Assembly: GCF_964204645.1 (NCBI RefSeq)
Contig: NC_134033.1
Coordinates: 918,631-982,630 of the forward strand
DNA: 64,000 bases
Origin: Tubulanus polymorphus
Taxonomy: Eukaryota; Nemertea; Palaeonemertea; Tubulaniformes; Tubulanidae
Direction: 5' to 3'
In this document: positions 31,578 through 59,827 of the stretch, piece after piece
How positions within the stretch are numbered: position 1 is the stretch's first letter
How the letters are laid out: every line of letters begins with the position of its first letter
Position numbers and translations under genes: made by a program
The notes under the pieces: generated by a model
Told to the model about the DNA's origin: nothing
Seen by the model: the letters and a program-made list of their open reading frames with translations, nothing else
Databases searched by the model: none

Positions 31578-32549
31578 GCAGACCCCGTTCCAGCTGCTGC
31601 CTTCCCAGTTAGGCGCCCTAGGCAGCGGACCCTCCGGCAGCCGCACCCTGCTGCGCAGAGGTGGTCCCGTCGCGTGGACGGGCGGCTGTGGGAGGGGGAG
31701 TTACGGGAGGTAAGCATCATCTCATCGAAAAGAGCCCGCGTTGGTGCCGTGAAAGTAAGTTTGATTTGCGTCAAATCATTTTAAGTTCGATAATCTGGGC
31801 AGGGTTTTATAGACCACATCATTTTCTCCTAGGGGTAAATCCTCAACCTTGGCCCGATTTCATAGACCGGGTTTCAATGTTGCCCCTAGCGGTAAATCCT
31901 CAACATAGGTGACAACCACCATTGTAACAATGATAAACTATGGTAATAACTGACAAATTTTTAAATGTTTCCATTTCGAACCACTTTTCAAGTGATTTTC
32001 GCGTCTCTGCACCCACAGTTCATGGTTATTCATGAAGACTTGACCATTATTTCCTGTTTTTAAGTCATGTAGATTATTATCATTGTGGTTCACCAATGAT
32101 TATGAGGATATTTTATTGTTTTCAAAATTTGCATCGGAAAAAGAATTATCCCTGAACCTTTCCGGTCCTACCGAGCTATTCACATATAGAATCCCTGAAT
32201 CTCTCCGGTCCTACCGAGCTATTCACATATAGAATCCCTGAACCGAGCTATTCACATATAGAATCCCTGAACCTTTCTGGTCCTACCGAGCTATTCACAT
32301 ATAGAATCCCTGAACCTTTCCGGTCCTACCGAGCTATTCACATGTAGAATCCCTGAACCTTTCCGGTCCTACCGAGCTATTCACATGTAGAATCCCTGAA
32401 CCTTTCCGGTCCTACCGAGCTATTCACATATAGAATCCCTGAACCTTTCCGGTCCTACCGAGCTATTCTGATACCGAATTCTCCAAACAGTAAGAAATCA
32501 TTTAATGTTTCGATGATTTAATCAATGTTGATCGTTTTGTTTTTTCCAG

Positions 32550-32600
32550 AGAGACGAGATACCGCAACTGCGCCGCTCCCCGCGGCTACAATGCCGTCGA
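32550..32600 (+). pseudogene. Duplicated 51 nt exon (RDEIPQLRRSPRLQCRR)
   Basis: Flanked by ttttttccag and gtaagtttg, same length as its source exon (41940-41990, RDEIPPLRRSPRLRRRR), and open in the same frame. Splice sites are intact. Confidence 0.75.
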
Positions 32601-32817
32601 GTAAGTTTGAATTATTTACTGAGTTAGTGGTATTCCAGATCTGATAACGACTTTGAGAGTAGTGCCTCCATTTTTAAGAGCTTTGAAATATCAAAATACT
32701 TTCAAGATCACAATGATTTCTAGTTGTGGTTATTTTTCGATCTCTTTCATCTGAACCTTGGCAGTGGGAGGGGGAGTTACGGGAGGTAAGCATCATCCTA
32801 ATTTGTTTATTTAACAA

Positions 32818-32883
32818 TCATTGAAGAGATTAGGCGGAATATCGCCGTGGATCCGCGGTATTTAGTTAATTTTTTGACGCGAT
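32818..32883 (+). pseudogene. Duplicated 66 nt exon with lost acceptor
   Basis: Same length as the source exon at 40619-40684. The coding frame stays open and the differences are mild (IEEIRRNIAVDPRYLVNFLT against IEEIRRNIAADPRYLLNFLT). The donor gtaagtac is intact, but the acceptor dinucleotide AG has become AA. Confidence 0.75.
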
Positions 32884-33010
32884 GTAAGTACAACTTTTTG
32901 CACTTATATTAAACTCTCTACTTTCTCTTTTCACTGATCACATCATTTTTCATCCCCCGCTCGTGTTGAGATAAATATCCTCAACGTATATTGAATAAAG
33001 TACTGGCTGT

Positions 33011-33590: not shown

Positions 33591-33597
33591 TGTGACT

Positions 33598-37400: not shown

Positions 37401-37509
37401 CGTAACTTGACTGAATGACTACACTACTACTGCTGATTAACTGACTACCATGACCGATGAAAAAAACTGTTTCGTTGAACTGCTGATTACCCGGATACAG
37501 GAAGCAGTT

Positions 37510-37577: not shown

Positions 37578-37579
37578 AT

Positions 37580-38041
37580 CTACTCCCTGTACCCACGCCT
37601 AAACAAGACCGATTTTAAATCATGTAAAAGAGCCTTTGATCTATCCGAAGATAGAAGCTCCTCCCACGGTCCCACGGAACCGCGAGCCACCACCCGCACT
37701 TCGGCGCGGCATCGGTCGCTGGACAGAACTCTGTCCAGCGCCGAAACCGGGGCAGCGGCCAACGGCTCCACGGGGGCAGGAGGAACCCCTCTTACCTCCT
37801 CAACCTCCACGACCATCTCCTCTTCTACCGGTTCCGGCTCCGGCTCCGGCTCCGGGACCGGTTCAAACACCGGTTCCGGTTCCGGCTCCGGCACCGGCAC
37901 CGCCTCCACCACCTCCGGAACTACCACGACGCCGATCTCCTCCCCTCCGCCACCGCGTCGCTCCCCCTCGGGAGGCGCCACACCACCGCGACGAACCGCC
38001 GGACGGCGTCGTCTTCGATGCCGAGCGGTGCGCGTGCCCGT
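37580..38041 (-). CDS. Exon 42, terminal (462 nt)
   Basis: Acceptor ttttttttgcag, then TGTRTARHRRRRRPAVRRGG, a Gly/Glu stretch, a (PE)n-type tract (VPVPEPEPEPVFEPVPEPEP), then ALDRVLSSDRCRAEVRVVAR and PWEELLSSDRSKALLHDLKS before the end at RRGYRE-stop. The paired VLSSDR / LLSSDR words suggest a small internal duplication. 153 codons plus stop. Confidence 0.83.
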   Translation of the reverse strand, partial: TGTRTARHRRRRRPAVRRGGVAPPEGERRGGGGEEIGVVVVPEVVEAVPVPEPEPEPVFEPVPEPEPEPEPVEEEMVVEVEEVRGVPPAPVEPLAAAPVSALDRVLSSDRCRAEVRVVARGSVGPWEELLSSDRSKALLHDLKSVLFRRGYRE

Positions 38042-39565
38042 CTGCAAAAAAAAGAAAACATTCATTTACTAAATGATCGGTTGAAAAGTGATTTTTTACA
38101 GAAAATTTTCGGATCAGTAACCGAGCTGAAATAATGAAACAATTGATTACATATAAACAAAGAGATAAATCGTCGCGATCTGGGAAACAATATTCTAAAG
38201 GGTTAGAAAATAAAGCAAAAAAAAAAATGACGATGGCTCGCTGAAAATGAAAGTATTATTAAAGAAAAGATATTATAAGTGATTCATAAAAACTGTTCGT
38301 GTGAGAGAAATTCATTCGAAATCAAAACTGAGAGAAATATAAAAAAACAGTTAATGTTGAGATGATGCTTACCTCCCGTAACTCCCCCTCCCACAGCCGC
38401 CCGTCCACGCGACGGGACCACCTCTGTGCAAGAGGGTGCGGCTGCCGGAGGGTCCGCTGCCTAGGGCGCCTATCCGGGGAGGCAGCAGCTGGAACGGGGT
38501 CTGCCAGCTGGTCATCCAAGACAGGACCAAGGTTCAAGTGAAAGAGGTCTATGGCCTCTTTCACGTCCTCCGGACCATCCTCCACCGTCTCAATTAATAT
38601 TGGTTCCACTGTAAAATATAAAATAGAAAGAAATACATTAACCATCAGGAGAAACAATTAATATATCAAGGGCGGATCCAGTCCCCCGCCTTTAATATCT
38701 TCAGGTGCCCTCAAGATATTTTTAGGAATTTCTTTTTCCATTTTATAAAGAAAGATAAAGTATTCTCTCATGATGGCTATCGAATAGCCTCGTGCAACAA
38801 AATTTCAAAATTTTCTGGGGAGAAACACTTAAGACCCCTTTCATCCCTTCACGAGTGCTCATGTGCCCTTCAGTAAACCTTCCAAAAATCCTGGCTCAGC
38901 CCTTGTAGATTTACAGTGAACCCAGTGTAGCTAGTAATCTCATTAATACAAAATGGCTGACTTTCCACTTGAAGTGTGATTGGTTGCCAATAATTTGTGA
39001 CATCATCATGCAGCAGAATGTGGGATGCGGAAAGAATACAATATCAGTCTCGATGAGTGACATTGATGGGCTGGTTGAGAATTTAGGGGTTGTCGGGACA
39101 GGGTTACTACAGTACAGCACAGAAGTAACTAAACATTGTATCATTGTATTGTTCAGTCACATGAACAAATAAATAGGTGTCATACCATCAGCGAACCATC
39201 ACTTAACCATCAGGTGAACCCCTGCCATAACCGCAAACCATGATTCATGATGATTTGAAAATAATTCTAAATGGTAGGCATGGAAACTTGTTAAAATTGA
39301 TCTAGTTCATAAAATGCAGTCTATTTTCTCTGATTCAAATCAGTTCAAGAAGACTTTTTTGGCAATGCTTCAATTAACAGCGTAAAATGGATGCAAAAAC
39401 GATGGTTTATTCAGACCGCGCGGTTTCACTGGTCGTATTTAAACCAAATTTGATGCGGTATGTGTTTAAAACAATGAGCGACATATGGTATATGGAGTAT
39501 ATTACTTCATGCCTTGCCAAACACTAATTACTTACTCACCAAATCACTCAATTAACCTGTTCTTA

Positions 39566-39618
<53 letters not shown>

Positions 39619-42600
39619 ATATATATATCCGTTTTCAGTCAATATCTCACACCTGACGATGATCTCTAGGGTGAGATCGAAACGTCGTGTTCTTATGTTT
39701 TAGATTGTTTCCATAAATAAATTCTCGATTTTAGAATTCTTTTAATTTGTAAATAAAGTTGGTTTTTATCTTATTAACCCTTTCAGTGCTGACTGATCAA
39801 TACCCTATAGTGCTGGAGATAATTTGAAAATTTTGAAAAATTCCACCCAAGTGTGTTGAATAACGGGAATAGCACTACAGTGCGTCTACACCACGGCGCG
39901 GTGTATCGTTAGTTACTGATATTTCACGGTGTCTGAAAATGGTTGACGCCACACGAAAATAAATAGGCTTCTGTTATACAGAATTCTGTTGTAAACAGAA
40001 AGGGAACAATGATCTCGTTTTTCGATTTCAATTATTTCTAGGATGTACCGTCAATAAGACCCGGGGCTTGATGAGGCAGTGGCTGCGTTACTGTGGCAAG
40101 CGAGGATCAGCTAGTGGTTACTCCTCAATTACCGTGCTTCAATTTCGTCGACACTTCCCGATTGAACTGTAGCCGACTCATCGCTTTATCAATACGCGAA
40201 AGTTCACGATTGGTAGAACACTATATCCGTGTTGACGCGATGAGGAGAGAATCCCACAATGATAATAAAAAGTCCGAAAATGAAACTTCGATATAGTCGA
40301 AACGTTGAAATAAACTACTATCTCGAAGTTTCATTTTTGGACTTTTTATTATCATTGTGGGATTCTCTCCTCAACGCGAAAGTTGCTCGAACAAAAATTC
40401 GTTTGATTATATTTGAATTTTGTAAGCGAAAATCGAGTTCGAAAATAAACTAATTTCATCGCGTATCAACGAGTGTATTTTTGCGCCATCTGTACGCAGC
40501 CAGTACCTTATTCAATGTACGTTGAGGATACTTAACACGAGCGGGGGGGGGGATGAAAAATGATGTGATCAGTGGAAAGAGAGAGGAGAGAGGTATAAAT
40601 GCAAAAAGTTGTACTTACATCGCGTCAAAAAATTAAGTAGATACCGCGGATCCGCGGCGATATTCCGCCTTATCTCTTCGATGACTGTAAAATAAATAAA
40701 TGAGAAAAATTATTAGTATTTCATTAAATCATGGACGATCAATAGGAGTTTTACGACGTGGACAATACAGTCAAAGTCCGTTATACTGCCGCCATACTCC
40801 ATCAGGAGTGACATGATTTTGGGCATTTTAACGTGCTGGATCCATTTCCATAAATGAGTTAACTCTGATCTCAGAATCTAGTTCTACATTTGCGAGAGTT
40901 AATTCTGAACTCAGGATCCAGTTCCACAGATGAGTTAGATTTAACTCTGAACACAGAATCCAGTGCTACAGTTACGAGTTAAAGTTAACTCTGAACTCAG
41001 GATCCAGTTCTACAGTTACGAGTTAAAGTTAACTCTGAACTCGGGATCCAGGACCCAGTTCCACAGTTGTGAGTTACAGTTAACTAAATTAATCATCAGT
41101 TATCAACAGTAAGGCGCTCAGTAACATCTTTCATATTTCTGTTCAAATCAGAGACAAATTCAGTATTTCTTGTCATAAAATAGTAACAAATACCGAAAAT
41201 CAGTAACAGTTTGGGCAGCTCTGCTAAAAATGTCTGGCTACAAACGGACATATCTAAATAGGATCATGAATATGTGTAGACTTACCATTTTCCGTCGCAT
41301 CGACGGCGGGGGCGGCAGCTGCATTTTCTGCCTATAATATAATAACAATCATGATGTTAAGGTTTAAGAAAACAACAAAAAAATTTGTCAAAATTTATGC
41401 AGTTTTTACTAGCGTTTCGATAACACGAATCGTAATTAGAGAGATAATGGGGCCAATTCCCTATATGAAATCAAAAGCTGAAATAGAGCCTGCAAACAAG
41501 AGCATTTCAAGAGCTCAACTAATGCAGCGCAAAGTTTCCAAACAAACCAAGAAATCACAATTTCAAAGTTTTTCTTGATTTCTCTTTATAGTACATTCGC
41601 CGTTTATGTATAGCAGTTCCGGTCCATTGGATAATCCTTTCATCATCGCTTTCATGAAATTTGAACAGTAGGGAACTGGCACCCCAGCTATCCCTTCAGA
41701 TGGCACCGCTTAGGTATGTGAGACAATCTAATGGGACAGAAAGTGAATTTCAGAGACGTCGTCTGCGCGACAAGTCGTCGTCAAATTAGAGCATCGATAT
41801 TTTTTCGCGCATCTCTTATTGTATTAATAGTGAGCACTGGATCATATCATTACGGTTAAAAATACCCGACTATTTGATATCTCTAATTTGAGTAGTTTTC
41901 ACCTGAATATATGACAGCGCAAGGGCTCTAATAACTTACTCTTCGGCGTCTCAGCCGCGGCGATCGCCTCAGCGGCGGTATCTCGTCTCTCTGGAAAAAA
42001 CAAAACAATCAACATTGATTAAATCATCGAAACATTAAATGATTTCTTACTGATTGGAGAATTCGGTATCAGAATAGCTCGGTAGGACCAGAGAGATTCA
42101 GGGATTCTATATGTGAATAGCTCGGTAGGACCAGAGATTCAGGGATTCTATATGCGAATAGCTCGGTAGGACCAGAGAGATTCAGGGATTCTATATGTGA
42201 ATAGCTCGGTAGGACCAGCGAGATTCAGGGATTCTATATGTGAATAGCTCGGTAGGACCAGAGAGATTCAGGGATTCTGTATGTCTTCCTGTTCATTGAC
42301 GTGTCAGTTATGATCAACACATTCAGTGTATTTGATACATTATAATTATTTTCACTTATAGTTCAAACTTACATCAGCTTGCGGCGGCGGCGGCGTCGCA
42401 GGTGTTTCAGTCTAAAAAGTAAAAAAACGATATTTCCATTGGTTATAAAAACATGAAAATGATTCATTTCAACTTAATATAATAAAACTTGGTTCCACAG
42501 TTCAGGACCCAGTCCCACAGTTACAGAACCTGGCTCCGCAGTTCTGGACCCAGTCCCACAGTTACAGAACCTGGCTCCGCAGTTCTGGACCCAGTTCCAC

Positions 42601-45600
42601 AGTTTGAAGTTATGATCTAGTAAAGAGTTTCCGATGCTGGATCCTAGTTTTCCAGCCAATGGTATTCAGTTAGTTCCGTGCGATGGTCATCAAGCCGATT
42701 GTCATAAATTTCTAGATCTCTCCCTGTCCCGCCGCCCCAGAATTAGGTATTTTTACTTTTTCTTTGGTTTCGATTTTTTGGTGCCACGAGATCCAAAGCA
42801 GAAGAATTCTACACTATTTTAATTCTTTTTCCGATGCAGATTTTGAAAACAATAAAATATCCTCATAATCATTAGTGAACCACAATGATAATAATCTACA
42901 GGACTTAAAACAGGAAATAATGGTCAAGTCTTCATGAATAACCATGAACTGTGGGTGCAGAGACGCGAAAATCACTTGAAAAGTGGTTCGAAATGGAAAC
43001 ATTTAAAAATTTGTCAGTTATTACCATAGTTTATCATTGTTACAATGGTGGTTGTCACCTATGTTGAGGATTTACCGCTAGGGGCAACATTGAAACCCGG
43101 TCTATGAAATCGGGCCACGGTTGAGGATTTACCCCTAGGAGAAAATGATGTGGTCTATAAAACCCTGCCCAGATTATCAATAAACTTATTTGAAATTAGC
43201 TTCACTTAAAATGATTTGACTCAAATCAAACTTACTTTGATTGGTCTGACGCGTGCCCGTTTAGGGCTAACGGGGTCCTATAAAATAAAAACAAGTTGAA
43301 ATCAACATCCAGAATTTTCAAACATATTTCTGAAGGAAATCTCAATTTCAGATTATCTTAATAATCTTTGGTGAGCCACGAAAATGATAATCTACACAAC
43401 TAAAAAATGGAAATGAATAACCATGAACTGCAGGTGCAGAAACGACAACACCACTTGCAAAAAGGGCTTCAACAAACTCTCCACAATCACAAGAGGCACG
43501 TACTACCATCGCGAAAATCTTGTGCCTTTTTTTCCATGCCCAAAATAGATGTTCAAGCCACTTGGAAAGTGGTTTTTTTCGCATCGACAAACTCTCGTCG
43601 CAATCACAAATCATACTTGTAGTAAGCTTAAACTTTCACAAGATCCCGTCGGCAGGCGGACAGATGGAGAGACAGGCGGACAGACGGAGAGACAGGCACA
43701 CAGACGAACGGACTGTAAAATGATTTGATGAAATTCAAACTCACCGATGCCGGTACCTCGAGCTTCCTCTTCTATAAAATAAAAAATCAACTCTAGTTTA
43801 ACGACGTCAACAAAAATTCAGACATATTTCATCTGCAGTCGTTTGTGTTCAACTGTAAATTCAATAGAAATGTTCACAATATTTACCGGCACATTCACGC
43901 ACGTGTGGAATTCATTTCTCTACATAAAAAGAAAAACAAGAGCTCAATTTAGCATTTATGAAAATCAGAATAAATTATCTCGAATCTCGCATTTTTTTAA
44001 TAGCTTGGTTGACAGGGTAGACTATTGAAATATCATTTCGGAAAATTTAAAAAAAAAAGAACTCGCTCAGCGCGATAAACACAGTTTTTGAAGGAAGAGG
44101 GAACGATCGATAGGGCAATATACATATGTCCAAAACAATGATCCTTGGAAAGTTCGAATTCGGCACACAAATGTGATCAAAAAAAGAATAAACGCGCGGT
44201 TTTCAATTTTTTCATCATTCAAGCCGGGATTCTCATTCGGCGAAGGTGAAAAACTTTTTTGCTCGTTTTCCACTGAATTTGTTCCACGGATAGGAGTAAA
44301 AAAAAATTCTACTTTTGTTTGACTTTTCTTCAAATTTCGGGAGGCGGTTCCCGTAAACCAAGCTATTTAAGAAAAAGCCTCATCTGGTGAACCATCAACA
44401 ATAGTTATTATTACGTTATAGGTTGTTACTAATGATCGGATTTATGAGAACCACAACGGTATAGTGTACATTATGGAATAAAGTTCAAGTTTTTGTCAGT
44501 AGATGGCAGGCAGGTGGTATTTATAAAGTGACTGGGTGTCAACATGTGTAACTGAAATTGTCTATTGTAAACTTACGTCAATTTGCACAATACGCGCGAT
44601 TTCCGATTCCTAGAAATGTAAAGAAAAAAAATTCTGAAATCAAGTTTTGAATAACTATACCACGGATCAAAGATTCCATGATCTAAATTCTTAGTTGACC
44701 CTCGATTTAGAGGCTATTTTGAGGATAATTGAACCGATGGATGCTGCGTGACATGATTTCAATATTCTACTAACTCGGTCTGAAGAATATTCACATCGAT
44801 ACAAAACTGTGACCGAGCCGCAACTTTTAAACATTCTTAGTTTCACTTAAAAACATTGCTTCACGCTATTATCAATACCAATTTTACGAATAATATGAAC
44901 TCGGTAAGATGAATATTCGCATCGATACAAACTGTGACCGAGTGAGACTACTTTCAAACACTCTTTAGATATAACTGGCTTCAGCTGTGATTAATTTAGG
45001 ACCGAAGATACTACTCTATATAGCTTAATCAGTAGCGGATCCAAACTAGATTCCATTGTATTCCGGAATATAGTCAGAATAACATTTTTTTTTTTAAAGT
45101 AACTCGATCCAACAGAATGTCCCAGATACAAGGAAATTAGAACATATTTCAAAATTCTTATTGGTTAGGACCCCTAAACTGCGGCAGCTGCAGCGGTCAG
45201 GCAAAAAATATCTTTAAGGAATATAGCCAAATTCACCAGCCCCCCACGGAACTGCCCCTAAGTAATGACATTTTATAATTGAACCCATGATACCGTATAG
45301 CGGCAGCAAACAGATCGGTCACAATTACCAGTGTTTATGTTTTCCAACAACAAATAAGCTAGCAAAAACTAGGTGCCTTTAGCCTACGAGCAAAATTGGT
45401 CGTAGCTTTAGCCAAGTTTGACCTTGGTGGAGATATGCTATGGGATCTCTTAGAACATGGATAATTCAGCAGGAAAATCAATATCAGATTATAATAATCT
45501 GGTGAACTACGAAAATAATTATCTTTTACAACTTACGATAATGGTAGGAGCCTCGGGCTCCGGCGGCGGCGGCTCTGGGAAATCATCATTCTAGTAATCA

Positions 45601-48600
45601 AAATAACATGAAATATCATGAAAAATTCTAGCTAACCCTAAAAGCGAGTATATATGGAGCCACCCACTAATGAAAGGGATGGCTCCAAATTCACTGAGAA
45701 CGAGTAGGCGATCAAAAGGATATTTACCCAAAGGTCGTCGAATAAATTGATGTCCTATAAAAAAGAATACAAAAAATTTATTACGATAAAACGTACGTAT
45801 GTTTTTGGTAAATGACACTTACTGATCACAAGTGACATATGGTCACGATAGTATCACAATTGCTTGCCAGTGAGGCTAGGCGTTCACCAGAGCCAAGTTT
45901 CATAGATGTTGGGAAAAAATAATACCAGCTGGGATCATTTCGAAATTTTTCAGTTATTACCAAGGTTTTCATTATGAAGTTGTCACCTATGTTGAAGATT
46001 TACCTATAGGCAACCAACAGGGCTGCCAACCTCTGAAAAGTGCTATCAGTAACAAATTGTAATATGAAAATAAATGTTCAAATCAATCAGTAATCAACAG
46101 TAAGACCCTCAGTTAGATCTTTCATACTTCTCATATGCATCGAACAAAACAAATCAGTATTTCTTGTCATAAAAGAGTAACAAATATCGAAAATCAGGAA
46201 CAGTTGGCAACTCTGGGTAACATTGATATCCGGTTTACAAAATCGGGCTCAGGTTGAAGAAATACCTCCAGGGTATTATTGATATACAGTCTATGAAACA
46301 GGGCTAAGGTTATCAATATTTAACATCGATATCGAAAATGATTTAATGAAATTGAAACTTACCTCGTCACGCGGAATCTTCGGCGGGCTGACAGGTTGCT
46401 GTAAAATATTTTTAAAAAAGTTGAAATCAACATTCAGAATTTTGATACACATTGATAATAATCTACACGACTTAAAACAGGAAATAATGGTCAAGTCTTC
46501 ATGAATAACCATAAGCTGTGGGTTCAGAGACGTGAACATCACCGACCGACCGACCGACCGACCGACCGACCGACCGACCGACCGACCGACCGACCGACCG
46601 ACCGACCGACCGACCGACCGACCGACCGACCGACCGACCGACCGACCGACCGACCGAGGGTAGACCACTTTTTTTCCTGATTTTGTAGTATTAAGAATTT
46701 ATAAATCCCCTGTGTTTTCCAGGATTTTGGTAAAAATCTATCAAATTCCCCAATCTTTCTGATTCAATGAGATTGCCAGGTTTTCTAGGACATTAGCACC
46801 CTTGAATTGCTGAACAATGCCTATACCACTGGCGATTGTGAGATCCTATCTATGGACGAAAAGACAGATTGAAAGTAATAACGCGAGAACGATTCGATAG
46901 AATTCAAACTGACCTCGTCGACGGATCGGCATCGTCGCTTTCTGGTGACCTATAAAATAAACGAGCAACATTTAGATTTAATCATTTTTCATTTTCAAGT
47001 TCATGATCACGTGTAGTTCGGACATGGAAAGCATTTCATGAGAGAAATTGAGTGGAGCCGATTTAAGACTGCGAGGAAAGATATCAGTAATGTCAGTGAT
47101 GAGCGAAAACTAAAAACATGGCCAAAACTTACTTCTTTCGTTGTTGTTATTGTTGTTTGTTTGCACTGATGCCATGAAAGAAAAAAAGAGAATTAATTTT
47201 AGTTTTGTTATTTTATGTTCAGTAGCACACGTAGGTATCAATATACGTAATAAATGAGTTCTAAGCGACGGATGCCTCGTTATAGATATTGTTTTGATTC
47301 TGTATCGTTATTTAATAAAACGAACAGGAGAATTTTTATGACTTTGTTCCCGGTATGAAATACATTGGCTGTCAGATAGAAATGAACACGACAGAAAATC
47401 CATGATACAGAAAAATGCTGACTTACTTCCTTCGGTGGTGCTGCTGCTGTTGGTTTCTGTTGCAATAAAAGAAAGAAAATTCAGTAAGTTTTTTTTCTTA
47501 TATTTCATATACAGCAGCAAACGTTAATAAACACAGTAGACATAAAAACTGGACAGGTTTATATAGATATCTGTATCTGAAAAATGATTTTGATGTCATT
47601 AGCATAAATATCTTACATTAAGTTAAGTGCAATTCCTGAGTGCTAATGGATTAAAGTTGATGTTAAGACAGGATCATCTACGCGGGTATACATGGGAAAC
47701 GAATGACGCTTAATTATAAAATTGAACTTACTCGTGCAGGAATGGCCGCTGCCACTGCTGGATCTGTTGGTTTCTGTTGCAATAAAAGAAAGAAAATTCA
47801 ATAAGTTTTTTTTTTTTATATTTCATATTCAGCAGCAAACATTAAACACAGAAGACACAAAAACTGGGCAGGTTTAATATCTGTGTCTGGAAATCGATGG
47901 AAATCGCAAAAAATAATTGCCCATAGGCCGAGAGGTTTACCACAGCCTTATGAAATGCTTATATCAGATAACGAAATAGGGATGTAAAGTGTAAGGTGCG
48001 AGAAGTTTCGGTCTCGGTTAGAGAAATGAACGTAATCATAAAATCGTAATTATAAAATAGAAACTTACTCGTGCAGGAACGGCCGCTGCTGCTGCAGCTG
48101 TTGTTGTTGTTGTTGGTTTCTGCTGCAATAAAAGAAAGAAAATTCAGTTTTGTTTTAAATTTCATATTCAGCAGCAAGCGTTAATAAACACAGTAGACAT
48201 AAAAACTGGACAGGTTCATATAGATATCTGTATCTGAAAAATGATTTTGATGTCATTAGCATAAATTTCTTACATTAAGTTAAAATCAAACATGCCACAT
48301 GGTAAATCATTTTGAAGGGAATCGAACTCAGATTAAATTCTGTAACTTTTGACAAAATTCTGATGAAAAGCTCTTTAAGAATCGATTGTTATATTATTTG
48401 ATGATCATTGGTTTACATATATCTGTTGGTTAATATTATCAATGAACTTGTGGTCCAGTCGCCAATCCCACGCGAAAAATGATTTGGACGCTTGATAATC
48501 AGACTTATTTAATATTCAACGCCCCCTGGTGAAAATATACAAAAACCGTTGACCTTGAAACTCGTCACTATCATAGAAAATGTCGCTAGTGAACAGATGG

Positions 48601-51600: not shown

Positions 51601-54600
51601 ATCAGCGAACGTTTTACCGAACAAGGAAGTATTTCGCAAATCGATATATGACGTCACGCGCAACAGCGCCAGTAATGAAATCACGCTTCATGAGGCCAGG
51701 GGGCTGGTGGAAGCGAGTTCGGGAGTGATACCGGACCCCTGGCAAGCGTTATATTACAAAATGGATAAGCGAACATTCACAATTGTAATTGTTATTTTGA
51801 ATTGCTCCAATATTGATGACGTAGCGCACATTGACTCACACAAAACCATAGGCGTCCCCGAGGGGGTGCAGGGGTAGCGGACCCTTTTCAAGATAGCTAA
51901 CTTCTCAAGTTAACATGTAATCAATGTTCAAGATTTTTCTTGCCAATTTGACTTAAGTCCTTTAACTCTAAGTGATTCATTTAGAGCCTGGAAAACGTCT
52001 CTAAAGCCTCAAATTTAAAAAAAAGTTTTTTGGGGGAGGCCCCCCAAACACCAGACATTGTGCTTGGATGCTGGATTGATGCTTATTCGAACCCCGTATG
52101 AAAATTCCTGGGGACGCCTATGAGAACCTGTTTTAAATAACGCACAGGTATGAATGTATATGAACATCGTTGTAATTCCGGTTTTTACGGCATCAAAAAA
52201 GTTGCGATATTCGCTTCGCTATTAACACTCCCTCCCGTTAAATAATACAGTCGAATTACCAAAAAATTGCATCAAAAGATTGAATCGTGAGAGCATCTCA
52301 AAAACGACATTTCAATAAATTGTCGTTAAGCCCTTGGGTTGTTTATCCTATACCTGAAATTTAAGGAGTTAGCAAATAAATAGGTCGCTGAGCTATAATT
52401 AATTGGAGAGGCGCAGTGGCCAAGTGGACTAAGCCGCCGGTCACTGGTCTCATCAATCCAGGGTTTATAGGTTCAAACCTTTGTGACGACAGAGTTTCTT
52501 AGTCGAATGTTTTTCTCTGGTCTCTTAAACAACGAATCCACTTATAATGCCATGTGTGGCGCTTAGCGTTTTGAGGCTCTTAAAAAGAGCTATAATTCGT
52601 GCAAATTAGATCATTTTTCAAAAAATTGTTACCAATCTTTTCTAAGGGTCAGTCATACCCTAGAAACCTTTCAATTAACATTAAGCTCTATCTCTTACAG
52701 TTTTCACTCTATGGAGCTCGAAAGTTTCTATTGATTTTCCTACTTTTATGTTAACAATGATGGGCACTCTGAGTGTTTTTTTTTATCAAATCACCCGTGA
52801 GTGCTGAAAGAGTTATGCCCTTGGATGATATATACTGGGAGGAGGGTTGATCCGACGTGACTCCTTAACTCATTTCCACCCAAACACGTTCTCGTATGTT
52901 CGTTATCTCCCATCACATTCCTGCCAAAACCGTACTGGCAAAATGGTTGGCTTGTTTCTTAACTCAAACCCGTACTGATACCGTTGGCTTGATTCTTAAC
53001 TCAAAACCGTACCGATACGGTTGGCTTGTTTCTTAACTCAAAACTGTACCGATACGGTTGGCTTGATTCTTAACTCAAAACCGTACCGATACGGTTTGCT
53101 TGATTCTTAACTCAAAACCGTACCGATACGGTTGGCTTGATTCTTAACTCAAAACCGTACCGATACGGTTGGCTTGGTTCTTAACTCTAACGATAGATGG
53201 CGAATTCATCGCACAACACCAGTTAGTTTAATGCCTTTTACTACTAAACAAACTCATCAGTTGTTCTATACAGTGTGCGAGTGACATCATCTATTGAAAT
53301 GGGGGCTGAACACGCATGAACGAGCATATATTCTGCAAAATACTCCCTCTGCACTGGTTATCGCTACAGATTTTATCACTCTTAGAAGAAATGCCGCTTA
53401 TTTTACATGAAAATGCAAGACCAGATCAAAGATATAAAACAAATTTGATGAGAAGATATCTCTTCTTGTTTTTGTTTTATGAATCTCTGAAAAACACGGA
53501 AATCCTGGCAAAACGCAGCATTGCCTGAAAAATAGGCGTGGCAGGCAAAGAGTTACGAATGTTCTTCATTTATATTCCCGCTTTTTTCTCATATACCCTA
53601 ATTATTCACTCGCCTTAAGCCCGCCGCACCCGGCATAACATTTGTTTCGCCAAAACAGAAAACACACTTTTCAGAACACGTTTTGCCCACAAACAATAAA
53701 ATGTTCAACGGACACGACATTTTGCTGTTCGGCGTTTTGTGTTTTGCCTTCCCCGCACATCTCACATTTTCATCTCAAGTCTCAACATATTACAATTGAT
53801 AACCAGCCAACAGAACGGATACATCTAAACTTACTTCGATGTCTGGGGACGCCAACGTGGACCTCGTTCCAGTGTGATGCTGTAAAAGAATAAAATTCAT
53901 TAATACAAAGCCTAGGAATTGGTAAATCAACCATGGAAAACATCATCTTGTTTTGCAGAAAATCTACCAGGGGAAAGAAAAAAACGAGTCGGAATCTATT
54001 CAATCGTTGCGCTTATGAAAATCAGCACCAGTTTATGGGCATAAAAATGTGCGCCAAGAATTGAATTTGATGACCAATACAAATAAACCAAAAATAGACA
54101 GGTTTGATATCTGTAACCGAATTGGATTTAGAGCCGCCTTTTTTCAGGTCAAAAACGATAAGTTACGAAGGGAATCGAACTCCGATTAAATTCTGTAACT
54201 TTGATGATAATTCTGACGAAAAACTCATAAGAATCGGTTGTTTCAAGGTAACAGAAGAATTAATACTTACTGCCTTTGCTGCTGTTTGTTTACGCTGATG
54301 ACATGAAAGAAAAAAAGAGAATTCATTTTAGTTTTGTTATTTCACGTTCACACGTTAAATACAGTAAATATAAATACATCAATAAAAGAGATACATAAAA
54401 TATATGCACATATATCCGTGAGCAAATGCTTCCAGATTTTACTGTGTGCGCTAATATTATATAAAAAAAACTTGATTATAAAATAATTCTAAGTGACGGG
54501 AATTTATTTCATTGAAAGCAGGATTATTTTCATGACTTTGTTCCCGGTATGAAATATACGATGAAAATCACAAACAAATCATCGTCTGTCAGAAAGAAAT

Positions 54601-57600
54601 AAACACGACTAGAAATTCCATGATACAGAAAACTTCTCACTTACTTCTGGTGCTGTCGTTTTTGTCGTCGTCGTCGTCGCTGAATTCTGTCGCAATAAAA
54701 AAAAAAGAGAATTCATGAATTTCTTGCATTATTTCATATTCAGTAGCACACATTTAACACAGGAGATCATATTATAATTAAAACAAGAGACAAGTTTTAT
54801 ATCTGTATTTGGAAAAACCCTGATATTTCTGTATTCGTTTGTTTTAGGGTTTTATTTAAACAATATAAAGTCCATTAAACAGAAAAATTCAAACTTACTG
54901 TATTCGTCGCTGTTTGTCTGTTCTGTTGCAATAAAAGAAAAGAGAATTCATTAATTTCTTGCATTGAAACTCTGATCTCTGTAACTTTGATATTTCTGTA
55001 TTCGTTTGTTTTACAGTTTGATTCAAACGATATAGAGTCCATGAAACAGAAAAATTCAAACTTCTGTTGTCGTTGCTGCTGCTGCTGCTGCTGCTGCAGC
55101 AAACTGTCGCGATGAAAGAATAGTAATTAATTGCATTGTTATTTCATATTGAGTAGCACACATTTAACAGAGATCATTATTAAAACGAATACCAGACAGG
55201 TTTAATATCTGGAAAAAGATTTCATCAGAGTAAACTTGTTACAATGAGAGAAAACCAAAAACACCACGCGATAAATCAGTTTGATAATTCCTTTTATCGG
55301 GATATTTGCACTTTAAAAATGACAATTGTAATTATTATCATTACTATTATCGTTATTACTACGAGTTTGATGATAATTATGAACTATATGCGCAAATATA
55401 AGCGTATGTGTAAGTGAGCGCGCGCACAAACTGAAGACGAAATCAGTTACAACTTGCTTAAAGAGTTATGAAGTTTCAATGACTCTCAGCGAAAATGGTA
55501 GATATCATATTCCACCGAGGAGATTAATAGAAAACTTACAAAATGAATTTCCGCTTCTACTGTTATCTAGAAAAGAGAATTAACATTCATATCTATAAAA
55601 ATCATTCATTAAATGATCAATGAATCTAAGCGCCAGTTTTATGGAGACCAATGTTTACTTTAATAAATCTGGGTTAACTTGATTAAAAGTGAATTCAGTT
55701 AACTGAGCACGGGTTAAACATAATACCAGTCTAACCGGCTTCAGAGGACCAGGTTAAACAAAACAGGTTTACATAAAATGATATCATAAAATCTAAACTT
55801 ACTGGCGGCGGAATTTCCTCCAGGACTTCTGGCTGTTGGAAAAGAACAATAACATTCACATTCAGGTCAAAAACGATAAGTTACGAAGGGAATCGAACTC
55901 CGATTAAATTCTGTAATTTTGATGATAATTCTGTTGAAAAACTCATAAGAATCGGTTGTTTCAAGGTAACAGAAGAATTTCTACTTACTGCCTTTGCTGC
56001 TGTTTGTTTACGCTGATGACATGAAAGAAAAAAAGAGAATTCATTTTAGTTTTGTTATTTCACGTTCACACGTTAAATACAGTAAATATAAATACATCAA
56101 TAAAAGAGATACATAAAACATATGCACATATATCCGTGAGCAAATGCTTCCAGATTTGACTGTGTGCGCTAATATTATATAAAAAAAACTTGATTATAAA
56201 ATAATTCTAAGTGACGGGAATTTATTTCATTGAAAGCAGGATTATTTTCATGACTTTGTTCCCGGTATGAAATATACGATGAAAATCACAAACAAATCAT
56301 CGTCTGTCAGAAAGAAATAAACACGACTAGAAATTCCATGATACAGAAAACTTCTCACTTACTTCTGGTGCTGTCGTTTTTGTCGTCGTCGTCGTCGCTG
56401 AATTCTGTCGCAATAAAAAAAAAAGAGAATTCATGAATTTCTTGCATTATTTCATATTCAGTAGCAAACATTAAACACAGGAGATCATATTATAATTAAA
56501 ACAAGAGACAAGTTTTATATCTGCATTTGGAAAAACCCTGATATTTCAGTATTCGTTTGTTTTAGGGTTTTATTTAAACAATATAAAGTCCATTAAACAG
56601 AAAAATTCAAACTTACTGTATTCGTCGCTGTTTGTCTGTTCTGTTGCAATAAAAGAAAAGAGAATTCATTAATTTCTTGCATTGAAACTCTGATCTCTGT
56701 AACTTTGATATTTCTGTATTCGTTTGTTTTACAGTTTGATTCAAACGATATAGAGTCCATGAAACAGAAAAATTCAAACTTCTGTTGTCGTTGCTGCTGC
56801 TGCTGCTGCTGCTGCTGCAGCAGCAAACTGTCGCGATGAAAGAATAGTAATTAATTGCGTTGTTATTTCATATTGAGTAGCACACATTTAACAGAGATCA
56901 TTATTAAAACGAATACCAGACAGGTTTAATATCTGGAAAAAGATTTCATCAGAGTAAACTTGTTACAATGAGAGAAAACCAAAAACACCACGCGATAAAT
57001 CAGTTTGATAATTCCTTTTATCGGGATATTTGCACTTTAAAAATGACAATTGTAATTATTATCATTACTATTATCGTTATTACTACGAGTTTGATGATAA
57101 TTATGAACTATATGCGCAAATATAAGCGTATGTGTAAGTGAGCGCGCGCACAAACTGAAGACGAAATCAGTTACAACTTGCTTAAAGAGTTATGAAGTTT
57201 CAATGACTCTCAGCGAAAATGGTAGATATCATATTCCACCGAGGAGATTAATAGAAAACTTACAAAATGAATTTCCGCTTCTACTGTTATCTAGAAAAGA
57301 GAATTAACATTCATATCTATAAAAATCATTCATTAAATGCTCAATGAATCTAAGCGCCAGTTTTATGGAGACCAATGTTTACTTTAATAAATCTGGGTTA
57401 ACTTGATTAAAAGTGAATTCAGTTAACTGAGCACGGGTTAAACATAATACCAGTCTAACCGGCTTCAGAGGACCAGGTTAAACAAAACAGGTTTATATAA
57501 AATGATATCATAAAATCTAAACTTACTGGCGGCGGAATTTCCTCCAGGACTTCTGGCTGTTAGAAAAGAACAATAACATTCACATTCAGGTCAAAAACGA

Positions 57601-59827
57601 TAAGTTACGAAGGGAATCGAACTCCGATTAAATTCTGTAACTTTGATGATAATTCTGACGAAAAACTCATAAGAATCGGTTGTTTCAAGGTAACAGAAGA
57701 ATTAATACTTACTGCCTTTGCTGCTGTTTGTTTACGCTGATGACATGAAAGAAAAAAAGAGAATTCATTTTAGTTTTGTTATTTCACGTTCACACGTTAA
57801 ATACAGTAAATATAAATACATCAATAAAAGAGATACATAAAATATATGCACATATATCCGTGAGCAAATGCTTCCAGATTTTACTGTGTGCGCTAATATT
57901 ATATAAAAAAAACTTGATTATAAAATAATTCTAAGTGACGGGAATTTATTTCATTGAAAGCAGGATTATTTTCATGACTTTGTTCCCGGTATGAAATATA
58001 CGATGAAAATCACAAACAAATCATCGTCTGTCAGAAAGAAATAAACACGACTAGAAATTCCATGATACAGAAAACTTCTCACTTACTTCTGGTGCTGTCG
58101 TTTTTGTCGTCGTCGTCGTCGTCGCTGAATTCTGTCGCAATAAAAAAAGAAGAGAATTCATGAATTTCTTGCATTATTTCATATTCAGTAGCAAACATTA
58201 AACACAGGAGATCATATTATAATTAAAACAAGAGACAAGTTTTATATCTGTATTTGGAAAAACCCTGATATTTCTGTATTCGTTTGTTTTAGGGTTTTAT
58301 TTAAACAATATAAAGTCCATTAAACAGAAAAATTCAAACTTACTGTATTCGTCGCTGTTTGTCTGTTCTGTTGCAATAAAAGAAAAGAGAATTCATTAAT
58401 TTCTTGCATTGAAACTCTGATCTCTGTAACTTTGATATTTCTGTATTCGTTTGTTTTACAGTTTGATTCAAACGATATAGAGTCCATGAAACAGAAAAAT
58501 TCAAACTTCTGTTGTCGTTGCTGCTGCTGCTGCTGCTGCAGCAGCAAACTGTCGCGATGAAAGAATAGTAATTAATTGCGTTGTTATTTCATATTGAGTA
58601 GCACACATTTAACAGAGATCATTATTAAAACGAATACCAGACAGGTTTAATATCTGGAAAAAGATTTCATCAGAGTAAACTTGTTACAATGAGAGAAAAC
58701 CAAAAACACCACGCGATAAATCAGTTTGATAATTCCTTTTATCGGGATATTTGACCTTTAAAAATGACAATTGTAATTATTATCATTACTATTATCGTTA
58801 TTACTACGAGTTTGATGATAATTATGAACTATATGCGCAAATATAAGCGTATGTGTAAGTGAGCGCGCGCACAAACTGAAGACGAAATCAGTTACAACTT
58901 GCTTAAAGAGTTATGAAGTTTCAATGACTCTCAGCGAAAATGGTAGATATCATATTCCACCGAGGAGATTAATAGAAAACTTACAAAATGAATTTCCGCT
59001 TCTACTGTTATCTAGAAAAGAGAATTAACATTCATATCTATAAAAATCATTCATTAAATGATCAATGAATCTAAGCGCCAGTTTTATGGAGACCAATGTT
59101 TACTTTAATAAATCTGGGTTAACTTGATTAAAAGTGAATTCAGTTAACTGAGCACGGGTTAAACATAATACCAGTCTAACCGGCTTCAGAGGACCAGGTT
59201 AAACAAAACAGGTTTACATAAAATGATATCATAAAATCTAAACTTACTGGCGGCGGAATTTCCTCCAGGACTTCTGGCTGTTAGAAAAGAACAATAACAT
59301 TCACATTCATTAGAATTATTTGAAAAATAAGCATCTGGGGGCGGTTGCACGTCAATCGAGACTTAAGTCCGAAAGTGGTCTTAAATCTTAAGACTGGTCT
59401 TAAGTTGTTAGATTGGCTATAGAAACCAAGTTGGTCTTAGACTGATCTTAAGTCAAAACCCTGACTATGGAACCGGCCCCAGAAAATGTTTCAGTTTTGA
59501 ATATTGATTGTAACATCAAATGATAACCGGTCCCGGGTTCAATTCCACATTTAATTCATTATTCCATCTGTATCCTGGATGGTTAGTGAGGTGGAGTGGA
59601 CGGTATCTTTGATGGGTTGGTATGAACGCCAACACCAGGGGGAGTGGGGGCGGGGGATTTAAATCTAGCTCCGATATATCAATGAAATAGTGCGCACTAT
59701 CTCAAAAATATCGATGACGTAGTGCACATCTACTCAGGTAAGTATACTAGGTATCAATGTAGATACAGACATATTATTGGAACAAAAAAAAATGAATACT
59801 TACTATCTGCTTTCGTTTTGGAGCCAT
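37580..59827 (-). CDS. Micro-exon gene, 42 coding exons, unknown basic protein
   Basis: I assembled this gene by eye from minus-strand splice sites. It starts at ATG 59827 (MAPKRKQI) and ends at TAG 37580-37582, about 752 codons over 22 kb. Thirty-seven exons are 24-54 nt. All boundaries are phase 0 except the two introns around the 66 nt exon, which are phase 1 and agree on both sides. Donors are almost always gtaagt and acceptors tttatt..cag or ttctag. No exon has an in-frame stop, and the 40-codon exon 22 is open in this frame only. That fixes the frame across 20 later exons into the two large 3' exons. The product is Lys/Arg-, Ala-, Thr- and Pro-rich with a (PE)n tract, probably disordered. 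Words such as KRARV and RRSPRLR hint at a nuclear or chromatin role (inference). I recognise no domain. A 5' UTR exon must lie above 59832. Confidence 0.85.
38373..38608 (-). CDS. Exon 41 (236 nt)
   Basis: Reads EPILIETVEDGPEDVKEAID, an acidic, helix-prone start, then LFHLNLGPVLDDQLADPVPA, then an Arg-rich part ending WSRRVDGRLWEGELRE. 78 codons after the two shared bases. Acceptor tatattttacag, donor gtaagcatc. The last 132 nt are duplicated at 31578-31709 with the frame intact. Confidence 0.83.
38667..38905. mobile_element. MITE-like element in intron 40
   Basis: Terminal repeats caagggcggatccag (left) and the complement of ctggctcagcccttg (right) match at 13 of 15 positions. No coding capacity. 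Confidence 0.6.
39235..39490. mobile_element. Half copy of the palindromic dispersed element
   Basis: Matches the right arm of the element at 60741-61170 (aaaatggtaggcatggaaac-type start, actctgattcaaatcag, cagcgtaaaatggatg, gtttcactggtcgtat). No left arm. Confidence 0.55.
39569..39614. repeat. (AT)n microsatellite
   Basis: About 23 AT units, then ccg-interrupted AT. It lies just upstream of a retroelement-like tail (cctgacgatgatctctaggg...gagatcgaaacgtcg at 39652-39687). Confidence 0.95.
39774..39945. mobile_element. TTAA-type element, single end
   Basis: ttaaccctttcagtgctgac at 39774, inverse of the right end of the element at 61170-62074. Homology continues through gcactacagtgcgtctacac and the cgcggtgtatcgttagt stretch. 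The other end is missing. It provides the empty-site sequence for the nested insertion at 61326-61932. Confidence 0.65.
40242..40372. mobile_element. Foldback with ~54 bp arms
   Basis: gaggagagaatcccacaatg ... and its complement (40317-40372) match almost perfectly around a ~22 nt centre containing tcgaaacgttgaaataaa, a word typical of retroelement 3' tails. Located in intron 40. Confidence 0.7.
40619..40684 (-). CDS. Exon 40 (66 nt, phase 1 both sides)
   Basis: Completes Val with the base carried from exon 39, then reads IEEIRRNIAADPRYLLNFLT + R and one base that continues into exon 41 as Leu. Phase 0 here hits a stop after four codons. The same frame stays open in the duplicate at 32818-32883, which supports it. 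Confidence 0.78.
40820..41090. repeat. ~50 bp degenerate minisatellite
   Basis: Units around gttaactctgaactcaggat + ccagttctacagttacga. Related words occur at 42485-42620 and at the right end of the window (63920-64000), so this is also a dispersed family. Confidence 0.75.
41286..41331 (-). CDS. Exon 39 (AENAAAAPAVDATEN + 1 base)
   Basis: 46 nt. Two AGs are available (ttatag|gcag|aaaatg). The upstream one gives a frame that ends one base into a codon, exactly as the next exon requires. The downstream one would give KMQLPPPPSMRRKM in phase 0 and would then run into a stop in the next exon. Confidence 0.74.
41940..41990 (-). CDS. Exon 38 (RDEIPPLRRSPRLRRRR)
   Basis: 51 nt, acceptor ttttttccag, donor gtaagtta. 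Duplicated with both splice sites at 32550-32600 (plus strand). Confidence 0.8.
42065..42290. repeat. 43 bp minisatellite in intron 37
   Basis: About five units with gaatagctcggtaggaccag and agattcagggattctatatg. The inverted partial gene copy carries the same array (32142-32480, seven to eight units), so it was present before the duplication. Confidence 0.88.
42373..42411 (-). CDS. Exon 37 (TETPATPPPPQAD)
   Basis: 39 nt, acceptor ctttttag, donor gtaagtttg. Confidence 0.76.
42480..42620. repeat. Short tandem repeat (acagttctggacccagtccc)
   Basis: About three units of ~57 bp. Belongs to the same word family as 40820-41090. Confidence 0.75.
43236..43277 (-). CDS. Exon 36 (DPVSPKRARVRPIK)
   Basis: 42 nt, acceptor attttatag, donor gtaagttt. 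The 3' half is duplicated on the plus strand at 31725-31754. KRARVR could be a nuclear localisation signal (inference). Confidence 0.8.
43745..43771 (-). CDS. Exon 35 (KRKLEVPAS)
   Basis: 27 nt, acceptor attttatag, donor gtgagttt. Confidence 0.73.
44577..44609 (-). CDS. Exon 34 (ESEIARIVQID)
   Basis: 33 nt, acceptor catttctag, donor gtaagttt. Confidence 0.75.
45537..45590 (-). CDS. Exon 33 (NDDFPEPPPPEPEAPTII)
   Basis: 54 nt, acceptor tgattactag, donor gtaagttg. Pro/Glu-rich. Confidence 0.78.
45728..45754 (-). CDS. Exon 32 (DINLFDDLW)
   Basis: 27 nt, acceptor tttttatag, donor gtaaatatc. An acidic-aromatic short motif of the kind that often mediates protein binding (inference). Confidence 0.75.
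46363..46398 (-). CDS. Exon 31 (QPVSPPKIPRDE)
   Basis: 36 nt, acceptor atattttacag, donor gtaagtttc. The intron between exons 30 and 31 holds the (CCGA)n tract. Confidence 0.77.
46541..46656. repeat. (CCGA)n microsatellite
   Basis: About 29 uninterrupted tetramers in intron 30, giving a spurious Gly-Arg-Ser-Val frame. The sequence before it (46447-46540) is a copy of intron sequence found at 42890-42970. Confidence 0.97.
46914..46949 (-). CDS. Exon 30 (VTRKRRCRSVDE)
   Basis: 36 nt, acceptor ttattttatag, donor gtcagttt (C at +3 is unusual here). Confidence 0.72.
47133..47165 (-). CDS. Exon 29 (CKQTTITTTKE)
   Basis: 33 nt. The acceptor atggcatcag resembles the atgtcatcag before RKQTAAKA in the 5' cassettes, and the peptides share KQT, so exons of this type recur across the gene. 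Confidence 0.78.
47427..47456 (-). CDS. Exon 28 (KPTAAAPPKE)
   Basis: 30 nt, acceptor ttattgcaacag, donor gtaagtcag. Third member of the KPT exon group. Confidence 0.8.
47732..47773 (-). CDS. Exon 27 (KPTDPAVAAAIPAR)
   Basis: 42 nt, acceptor ttattgcaacag, donor gtaagttc. Aligned with exon 26 the ends are conserved (KPT and PAR) and the middle differs by lost triplets. Confidence 0.8.
48069..48119 (-). CDS. Exon 26 (KPTTTTTAAAAAAVPAR)
   Basis: 51 nt, acceptor ttattgcagcag (tandem AG), donor gtaagtttc. A paralogue of exons 27 and 28, which share the KPT start and the flanking intron sequence. Confidence 0.8.
48654..48701 (-). CDS. Exon 25 (MKA8KTAAAF)
   Basis: 48 nt GCA-repeat exon. The acceptor region tatagcag offers two AGs three bases apart, so splicing could add one Gln codon without a frame change. 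Confidence 0.75.
48934..48960 (-). CDS. Exon 24 (RERKKKALE)
   Basis: 27 nt, acceptor ttctttccag, donor gtaagtttg. Same length and character as exon 23, only 100 bp from it, so probably a local duplicate. Confidence 0.75.
49061..49087 (-). CDS. Exon 23 (TLKEKRKME)
   Basis: 27 nt, acceptor tttatttaatag, donor gtaagtaaa. Strongly basic. Confidence 0.75.
49843..49962 (-). CDS. Exon 22 (120 nt)
   Basis: 40 codons beginning QVIVDTPRVHAIVVVRGPK and ending RDRLVAQE, donor gtaagaat, acceptor ctatttacag. This is the most ordered-looking part: a hydrophobic beta-like VIVDTP..HAIVVV run followed by a helix-like YEYAHELRDRL. Only frame 0 is open, so this exon anchors the phase of the gene. GC content is clearly above that of the introns. 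Confidence 0.82.
50330..50410 (-). CDS. Exon 21 (81 nt)
   Basis: Reads EIETVFELKLGTSL...LTRKHP, 27 codons. Acceptor tttatatttcag. The donor gtaatgtg is weaker than its neighbours. A second frame (NRNSFRIKVGDVAQ...) is open too. It is rejected because the 120 nt exon that follows allows only frame 0. Confidence 0.72.
50868..51360. mobile_element. hAT-like non-autonomous element
   Basis: Ends cagagttgccactt and aagtggcaacactg are inverse complements (13 of 14) and begin with CAG. The flanks on both sides read tatatt, a probable 6 bp or longer target duplication. Interior frames lack any transposase feature. In intron 20. Confidence 0.65.
51427..51515 (-). mobile_element. tRNA-like SINE scrap
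   Basis: Minus strand contains gggttcgaatccc, a perfect B box, about 75 nt after a weak A-box-like region. It lies between two copies of a ~65 bp sequence (tattacaaaatggataagcg..., 51361 and 51751). Confidence 0.45.
51847..52122. mobile_element. MITE with 13 bp perfect ends
   Basis: cataggcgtcccc at 51847-51859 and its exact complement at 52110-52122. GC-rich interior patches (gggggaggccccccaaac), no reading frame. Confidence 0.75.
52411..52492 (+). mobile_element. tRNA-derived SINE head
   Basis: gcagtggccaagtggactaa matches an A box and ggttcaaacct a B box. The spacing suits a tRNA with a long variable arm (Leu or Ser type). The acceptor stem is poor, so I call it a SINE head rather than a tRNA gene. 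In intron 20. Confidence 0.6.
52940..53190. repeat. 37 bp minisatellite with a near-palindromic core
   Basis: Six to seven units of ttcttaactcaaaaccgtac + cgatacggttggcttga. Each unit contains accgtaccgatacggt, almost its own complement. Confidence 0.9.
53835..53879 (-). CDS. Exon 20 (HHTGTRSTLASPDIE)
   Basis: 45 nt, acceptor ttcttttacag, donor gtaagttt. Another frame is also open, but frame 0 is required by exon 22. Confidence 0.75.
54143..55860 (-). CDS. Six-exon cassette, copy 3 (exons 14-19)
   Basis: Exons: 55803-55832 PEVLEEIPPP; 55540-55566 ITVEAEIHF; 55062-55103 F(A)9TTTE; 54899-54922 NRQTATNT; 54645-54686 NSATTTTTKTTAPE; 54271-54294 RKQTAAKA. Cassette starts are 1718 and 1724 bases apart (ttcaggtcaaaaacgataag marks each left edge). 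Confidence 0.82.
55861..57584 (-). CDS. Six-exon cassette, copy 2 (exons 8-13)
   Basis: Exons: 57527-57556 PEVLEEIPPP; 57264-57290 ITVEAEIHF; 56780-56827 F(A)11TTTE; 56617-56640 NRQTATNT; 56363-56404 NSATTTTTKTTAPE; 55989-56012 RKQTAAKA. It differs from copy 1 by two extra Ala codons and one fewer Thr codon, so length changes are triplet slippage that keeps the frame. The same weak donor follows the poly-Ala exon. Confidence 0.82.
57585..59307 (-). CDS. Six-exon cassette, copy 1 (exons 2-7)
   Basis: Exons in transcript order: 59248-59277 PEVLEEIPPP; 58985-59011 ITVEAEIHF; 58507-58548 F(A)9TTTE; 58344-58367 NRQTATNT; 58087-58131 NSATTTTTTKTTAPE; 57713-57736 RKQTAAKA. All are multiples of 3. 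Donors are gtaagt except the poly-Ala exon, where the only usable GT gives GAA|gtttga. The surrounding ~1.72 kb, introns included, recurs twice downstream at near identity. Confidence 0.82.
59337..59480. mobile_element. Foldback element rich in cttaag words
   Basis: Ends tgggggcggttgcac and ggaaccggcccca are imperfect inverse complements. The interior repeats gtcttaag and cttaagac. It lies between exon 1 and exon 2 of the micro-exon gene. Confidence 0.6.

Follow-up and report, generated by a model that had tools for sequence, protein, structure and literature searches.

A Predicted Micro-Exon Gene in the Nemertean Tubulanus polymorphus, One of Nine Close Paralogs Probably Grown by Nested Duplication

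A stretch of 64,000 nucleotides from the nemertean Tubulanus polymorphus (C9:918631-982630 of a 268 Mb genome; the whole stretch is called the window below) probably carries a protein-coding gene that consists mainly of 24-54 nt phase-0 exons, has eight close paralogs, grew by nested tandem duplication and encodes a mostly disordered nuclear product. On the minus strand, from 59827 to 37580, 43 exons join into a single open frame of 763 codons. Exons of at most 54 nt (38/43) make up 58% of the coding sequence; those of at most 36 nt (23/43) make up 28% and are no majority. The intron phases, 40/42 phase 0 and 2/42 phase 1, bear out the symmetric exons proposed by an earlier sequence-only reading, which had treated the gene as a single locus. 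That view does not hold: nine gene copies, named here by contig, lie in both orientations on three contigs, the window gene and one other on C9, six on C11 and one on C8, and there are many more distant relatives.

Exon Structure

All 42 introns start with GT, 32 of them with GTAAGT, and end in CAG (29) or TAG (13). The sequence-only reading had counted 42 exons, 37 of them no longer than 54 nt, and about 752 residues; its exon chain is upheld, at slightly revised counts. When a micro-exon candidate is defined as an acceptor with a pyrimidine tract, an open phase-0 exon of 21-120 nt and GTAAGT, the gene region holds 28 on the minus strand and none on the plus strand; 200 dinucleotide shuffles gave 0.16 on average and never more than 2. 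Elsewhere in the window there are three, which all lie on the plus strand and include two inside inverted fragments of the micro-exon gene.

A GTTTGA donor follows a4, b4 and c4, which form one exon class; the model without them has 40 exons and 719 codons. This class may be dead, since one of its exons is out of frame in C11b and one has a GC donor in C9b. Once it is set aside, all eight other copies are open from start to end (in C11f, 35/40 exons were mapped), and the start exon and the stop are kept in 9/9 copies. The paralogous copies thus provide independent support for the exon model, and the predicted exon chain is, judged from its sequence, real.

Selection Between the Copies

The nine copies differ by 0.6-2.9% in pairwise substitution, and their differences follow the predicted frame. 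Exon lengths in eight copies were compared with the window over 331 exon instances; six C8 instances read twice, from one of the two C8 blocks, had been dropped (337/104/101 became 331/102/99), and seven exons of C11f lay outside the collinear map, a separate reading of C11f giving three blocks. Net length differs in 102 of the 331 instances, in 99 by whole codons. Two of the three non-triplet changes (E28 in C11c and C11d) are alignment-edge artefacts, with 27 nt found by direct reading, and the third is an a4 exon. The intron control, 12569 size-matched pieces, gave 918 out-of-frame and 121 in-frame changes. Over the nine copies, donor positions +3 to +6 vary at 0/168 sites, AG at 0/84 and GT at 1/84 (in c4); introns vary at 944/18864 sites (5.0%).

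The main test of omega left out the repeat-containing exons. The remaining exons have 54 silent and 40 replacement changes (omega about 0.30, p = 6e-9), and shifted frames give 1.60 and 1.36 on the same exons. Non-repeat micro-exons alone, without E39, also give 0.30 (p = 8e-5), and all exons together, with 76 silent and 81 replacement changes, give 0.45 (p = 8e-7). By this comparison, the predicted frame is under purifying selection between paralogs.

Several observations weigh against the reading of the window gene proposed here. The 18 positions before AG vary at 30/756 sites (4.0%), hardly below introns. Over all exons, variability at codon positions 1 and 2 is no lower than in introns (p = 0.95); it is weakly lower in non-repeat exons (p = 0.017) and not significantly so in non-repeat micro-exons (p = 0.11). 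Third positions (about 9-10%) are more variable than introns (5.0%), and no explanation was found. Taken alone, the last exon gives no clear sign of selection (8 silent changes and 9 replacements, p = 0.12). The p-values are too optimistic because related copies have variants in common and conversion has spread some of these. Hydropathy of the whole protein is 0.425, a little higher than the disorder boundary of 0.414, so that the claim of disorder is one of composition only. No poly(A) hexamer (AATAAA or ATTAAA) was found in any of the nine copies in the 548-1340 nt 3' of the stop. For this reason, and because the last exon, E43, could end earlier, before a GTAAGA donor at 37795, the gene model is least secure at its 3' end. 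In diverged, partly broken C8 copies, E21 reads into E22 without an intron, and the predicted junction shows neither gain nor loss of a residue. No other sequence unites two exons, and these joined copies could represent an older form that lacked the intron instead of being evidence of splicing. Spliced retrocopies were sought as proof of splicing, and none was found for E30-E41.

Growth by Nested Duplication

Comparison of the copies indicates that exon number changes by copying of an exon together with its intron, and that duplication is nested at several levels. Eight copies have three six-exon blocks each and C8 has two; blocks diverge by 1.76% within a copy vs 1.98% between copies. The KPT..PAR exon class, counted from in-frame candidates only, has 2, 2, 3, 3, 4, 6, 2, 2 and 3 members in C9a, C9b, C11a-f and C8; without the frame filter there are 29 similarity matches, 27 in the nine genes and two in a diverged C8 stretch, all with lengths that are multiples of three. 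Introns of different exons are themselves homologous: at their starts, those of a4-a7 with those of E23-E25 and E28, and that of E31 with those of E36 and E37; at their ends, those of a4-a7 with those of E24-E29, and that of E31 with that of E37. Given this common origin, the common phase can be a by-product of exon-unit duplication.

We propose that single exon-intron units were copied, that a six-exon block was copied in tandem to give three per gene (two in C8), and that duplication also took in large segments at sites within 3 Mb of contig ends. Symmetric units keep the frame through exon gain and loss, and paralogs therefore differ in the number and length of their modules. The micro-exons may serve as motif cassettes around a small E21-E22 domain and a conserved E41-E42 region. 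With exon gain caught at several levels and nine young paralogs at hand, the origin of micro-exon genes becomes testable.

The family also separates two reasons for symmetric exons, growth by duplication and exon skipping. Under the latter, symmetric micro-exons would be kept since regulated skipping yields many isoforms, as proposed for schistosome micro-exon genes (MEGs). With 40/42 introns in phase 0, subsets of exons could be removed without a frame shift, and the modules differ in sequence, so alternative splicing of the predicted gene is possible. The donors, nearly invariant and GTAAGT in 32/42 introns, are as expected of constitutive exons and fit constitutive inclusion at least as well, while the common phase follows from duplication too; skipping as the reason for the symmetry is doubtful.

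Predicted Product and Distant Relatives

The predicted product is rich in Ala, Pro, Glu, Thr and Arg, and disorder-promoting residues make up 59% of it. The sequence-only reading had described it as Pro/Ala/Thr-rich without a secreted-type start, which agrees with our results, and as basic, which does not: charge is balanced, with 111 K+R vs 109 D+E and an isoelectric point of 8.1. The N-terminus, MAPKRKQIPEVLEEI, shows no signal-peptide-like start when judged by hydropathy without a dedicated predictor (highest listed value over nine residues 0.8), and the five Cys residues form no CYC motif. Seven K/R runs of at least three residues and five S/T-P-(x)-K/R motifs suggest that the product is nuclear and near nucleic acid; a role in chromatin or nucleic-acid binding would be a guess. 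E21-E22 appears to be the part most like a folded domain.

A search of 5.8 billion proteins with residues 157-560 of the 719-residue version scored 7989 candidates, none of which reached E <=0.01. Pfam gave no match for the spliced protein or for E21-E22, and the best E in PDB, for the 85-residue E21-E24 piece only, was 0.11. A Pfam hit of E41-E42 to DUF2249 (0.0084) was rejected as below the family cut-off. No mobile or viral element domain was accepted among 79 open reading frames (ORFs) of the window searched against Pfam, three hits at 0.004-0.007 being discounted; these ORFs are a selection from 177 that reach 58 aa or more, listed with tandem-repeat stretches excluded. No matching gene was found in the portion of the literature searched, and its absence from print is unproven. 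The best reading of these searches is a lineage-specific gene, with no relative found outside its own genome in the parts searched.

Within the genome, a protein query of E41-E42 finds relatives at C6 0.65-1.75 Mb, C3 0.42-1.33 Mb and C8 15.1-16.3 Mb, with 42-53% identity over the E42 part. A back-search with one relative gives about 39 stop-free matches by hand count (stop-free over at least 70/98 residues; further matches are partial or have stops): 23 on C6, the query's own locus included, 10 on C3 and 6 on C8. It also gives 38 rows that match the E41-like piece (residues 1-22) and four weak matches on C12 (41-45%). A superfamily defined by a 66-nt exon, then a ~230-nt exon, with matching phases and a peptide ending in RVxGRLxEGxLxE, so far takes in the window gene and the 7.4-kb C6 locus L035, whose 66-nt and 230-nt exons have the phases of E41 and E42 and a similar acceptor region; the remaining relatives have been detected as protein matches only. 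In the 7.4 kb of this C6 locus, its 5 kb upstream included, no further phase-0 GTAAGT micro-exon accompanies the E41-like exon, so the micro-exons may be peculiar to the nine copies. At the DNA level, the C3 and C6 arrays show no match to window 58000-59000 (best 40 of 49 candidates) or to 43200-43960, which spans E35-E37 (39/39 candidates scored).

A wider claim would make these loci a lineage-specific superfamily of about fifty, in which a nuclear motif repertoire evolves by copying symmetric units, paralogs act as hard-wired isoforms and germline or chromatin conflict drives amplification. We think this unlikely. Equally improbable is an ampliconic germline family with genetic conflict, such as meiotic drive or chromatin conflict, as its driver. 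Arrays of recent copies close to contig ends, a nuclear-like composition and the failure to find relatives in the databases searched would suit it, but an omega of about 0.3 speaks of constraint rather than fast change.

Shared DNA Around the Nine Copies

The shared DNA exceeds the gene. Window stretches 25000-27100, 31000-36900 and 61300-64000 match beside all nine copies, and as far as tested on both sides (25000 to 64000) the shared DNA is present at all nine places, with no common end seen. The large copied segments lie within 3 Mb of contig ends, and on C11 two pairs form tandems with spacings of 77.8 and 81.4 kb.

The spread of near-identical copies over three contigs and both orientations, together with a nearly perfect hairpin near the 5' end, would be expected if a large mobile element carried the gene, as cargo or as one of its own, and made nine copies by transposition. 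This is very unlikely given the lack of a common end over the range tested, the tandem C11 pairs, a hairpin missing in 5/9 copies, and no transposase or polymerase among the 79 ORFs scanned. Least credible of all is a once-coding multi-copy pseudogene or non-coding repeat whose frame is open because the copies are young, to which their closeness and the scrambled fragments nearby would point, against frame-specific selection, in-frame length changes, fixed donors and open frames in other copies.

Features of the Window

The preferred gene model and its surroundings are set out in Table 1.

Table 1. Positions of the predicted exons and related features in the window
Feature	Position	Strand	Observation or basis
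E1, MAPKRKQI, start codon	59804..59827	-	identical with GTAAGT donor in 9/9 copies
a2 PEVLEEIPPP	59248..59277	-	in frame with GTAAGT in each of 26 block copies
a3 ITVEAEIHF	58985..59011	-	exon model, copy comparison
a4 poly-Ala exon, donor GTTTGA, doubtful	58507..58548	-	
a5 NRQTATNT	58344..58367	-	
a6 NSATTTTTTKTTAPE	58087..58131	-	
a7 RKQTAAKA	57713..57736	-	
b2, block copy two	57527..57556	-	
b3	57264..57290	-	
b4, donor GTTTGA, doubtful	56780..56827	-	
b5	56617..56640	-	
b6	56363..56404	-	
b7	55989..56012	-	
c2, block copy three	55803..55832	-	
c3	55540..55566	-	
c4, donor GTTTGA, doubtful	55062..55103	-	
c5	54899..54922	-	
c6	54645..54686	-	
c7	54271..54294	-	
E20 HHTGTRSTLASPDIE	53835..53879	-	9 copies, 8 identical
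E21 EIETVFELKLGTSLRASFQKTLTRKHP, donor GTAATG	50330..50410	-	9 copies; reads on into E22 in diverged C8 copies
E22 (with E21, piece most like a folded domain)	49843..49962	-	copies, diverged C8 copies
E23 TLKEKRKME	49061..49087	-	copy comparison
E24 RERKKKALE	48934..48960	-	copy comparison
E25 MKAAAAAAAAKTAAAF	48654..48701	-	
E26, KPT..PAR class (2-6 per paralog)	48069..48119	-	copy comparison
E27, KPT..PAR class	47732..47773	-	copy comparison
E28 KPTAAAPPKE	47427..47456	-	copy comparison
E29 CKQTTITTTKE	47133..47165	-	copy comparison
E30 VTRKRRCRSVDE, donor GTCAGT	46914..46949	-	copy comparison
E31 QPVSPPKIPRDE	46363..46398	-	copy comparison
E32 DINLFDDLW, donor GTAAAT	45728..45754	-	copy comparison
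E33 NDDFPEPPPPEPEAPTII	45537..45590	-	identical in 9/9 copies
E34 ESEIARIVQID	44577..44609	-	copy comparison
E35 RNEFHTCVNVP, donor GTAAAT	43887..43919	-	identical in 9/9 copies
E36 KRKLEVPAS, donor GTGAGT	43745..43771	-	copy comparison
E37 DPVSPKRARVRPIK	43236..43277	-	8/9 copies by similarity match; C11e found in separate exon reading
E38 TETPATPPPPQAD	42373..42411	-	copy comparison
E39 RDEIPPLRRSPRLRRRR	41940..41990	-	copy comparison
E40, phase-1 end	41286..41331	-	copy comparison, exon model
E41, 66 nt	40619..40684	-	same length and phase as exon in C6 relative L035
E42, common to distant relatives	38373..38608	-	copies, relatives
E43, last exon	37583..38041	-	end and stop in 9/9 copies; possible donor 37795
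Stop TAG	37580-37582	-	9/9 copies
Six-exon block x3 in tandem, period ~1.72 kb	54271..59277	-	
Part of duplicated segment	25000..64000	.	gene and three flanking stretches each at all nine places
Inverted, scrambled fragments of E42, E37, E39, E41	31572..32890	+	

Two hairpins lie in or near the gene. One, a long hairpin at 37489-37598, spans the stop codon (-69.9 kcal/mol, z -11.3) and is found in 9/9 copies, with arm changes in C11a, C11b and C8 that lack compensation. The other, at 60006-60090, is nearly perfect (~38 bp; -68.3 kcal/mol, z -16.8), lies ~180 nt upstream of the start and occurs in 4/9 copies, with different DNA at the same place in the other five. Farther upstream, at 61324-61934, is a ~611-bp element with short inverted ends; it is missing at the corresponding place in C11c, C11d, C11f and C8, and has 31 further genome copies at 97-98% identity among the matches listed (best 40 of 5721 candidates).

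On the other side of the gene, positions 26980-30900 form an array of 40-nt repeats, many units of which have an acceptor-like TTCTTACAG and a donor-like GTAAAA. Positions 1-12000 are occupied by a 3.4-kb tandem unit, which occurs at many further sites on C9 and C11, some of them far from the nine genes; the ORFs scanned in it contain no Pfam domain. RNA searches gave no family at gathering score and no tRNA, and COX1 has no match in the assembly.

Outside the window, a further incomplete copy at C11:3011500-3015240 is scrambled, and its matches to E21, E22 and E42 fall on both strands. In loci L033 (9100-10000) and L034 (1-1500), joined E21-E22 copies are interleaved with ~120-nt repeats, whose translation, we assume, resembles the histone H2A N-tail.

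Comparison With Known Micro-Exon Families

The comparison with micro-exon genes drawn by the sequence-only reading is fair. Schistosome MEGs have most of their coding sequence in very small symmetrical exons, carry signal peptides and show high dN/dS (PMC4350168). The window gene resembles them in having most coding sequence in small symmetrical exons, at the 54-nt limit only. By contrast, its product has no secreted-type start that could be seen, omega between paralogs is about 0.3 vs a high MEG dN/dS between species (an indirect comparison), and its family differs by nested duplication at several levels.

In aphids, the internal exons of bicycle genes are almost all phase 2, and megacycle has >100 micro-exons (PMC9168663). 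The likeness lies in many one-phase micro-exons, in the multi-copy state and in being hard to find by sequence; the phase itself differs, being 2 there vs 0 in 40/42 introns here. The bicycle family is defined by a paired C-Y-C motif, and neither this motif nor a secreted-type start is seen in the window product. The window family is thus MEG- and bicycle-like in architecture, yet departs from each in some of the features tested.

Ampliconic and macrosatellite arrays, such as DUX4 and mouse Slx/Sly, are not known to be micro-exon genes. The likeness there is that of recent large copies of a gene for a probably nuclear protein; sequence comparison with them was confined to the general Pfam, PDB and protein searches. 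Standard gene finders would probably miss a gene of the window's kind. The micro-exon families in the papers compared are secreted parasite or aphid effectors, whereas the window family is probably nuclear.
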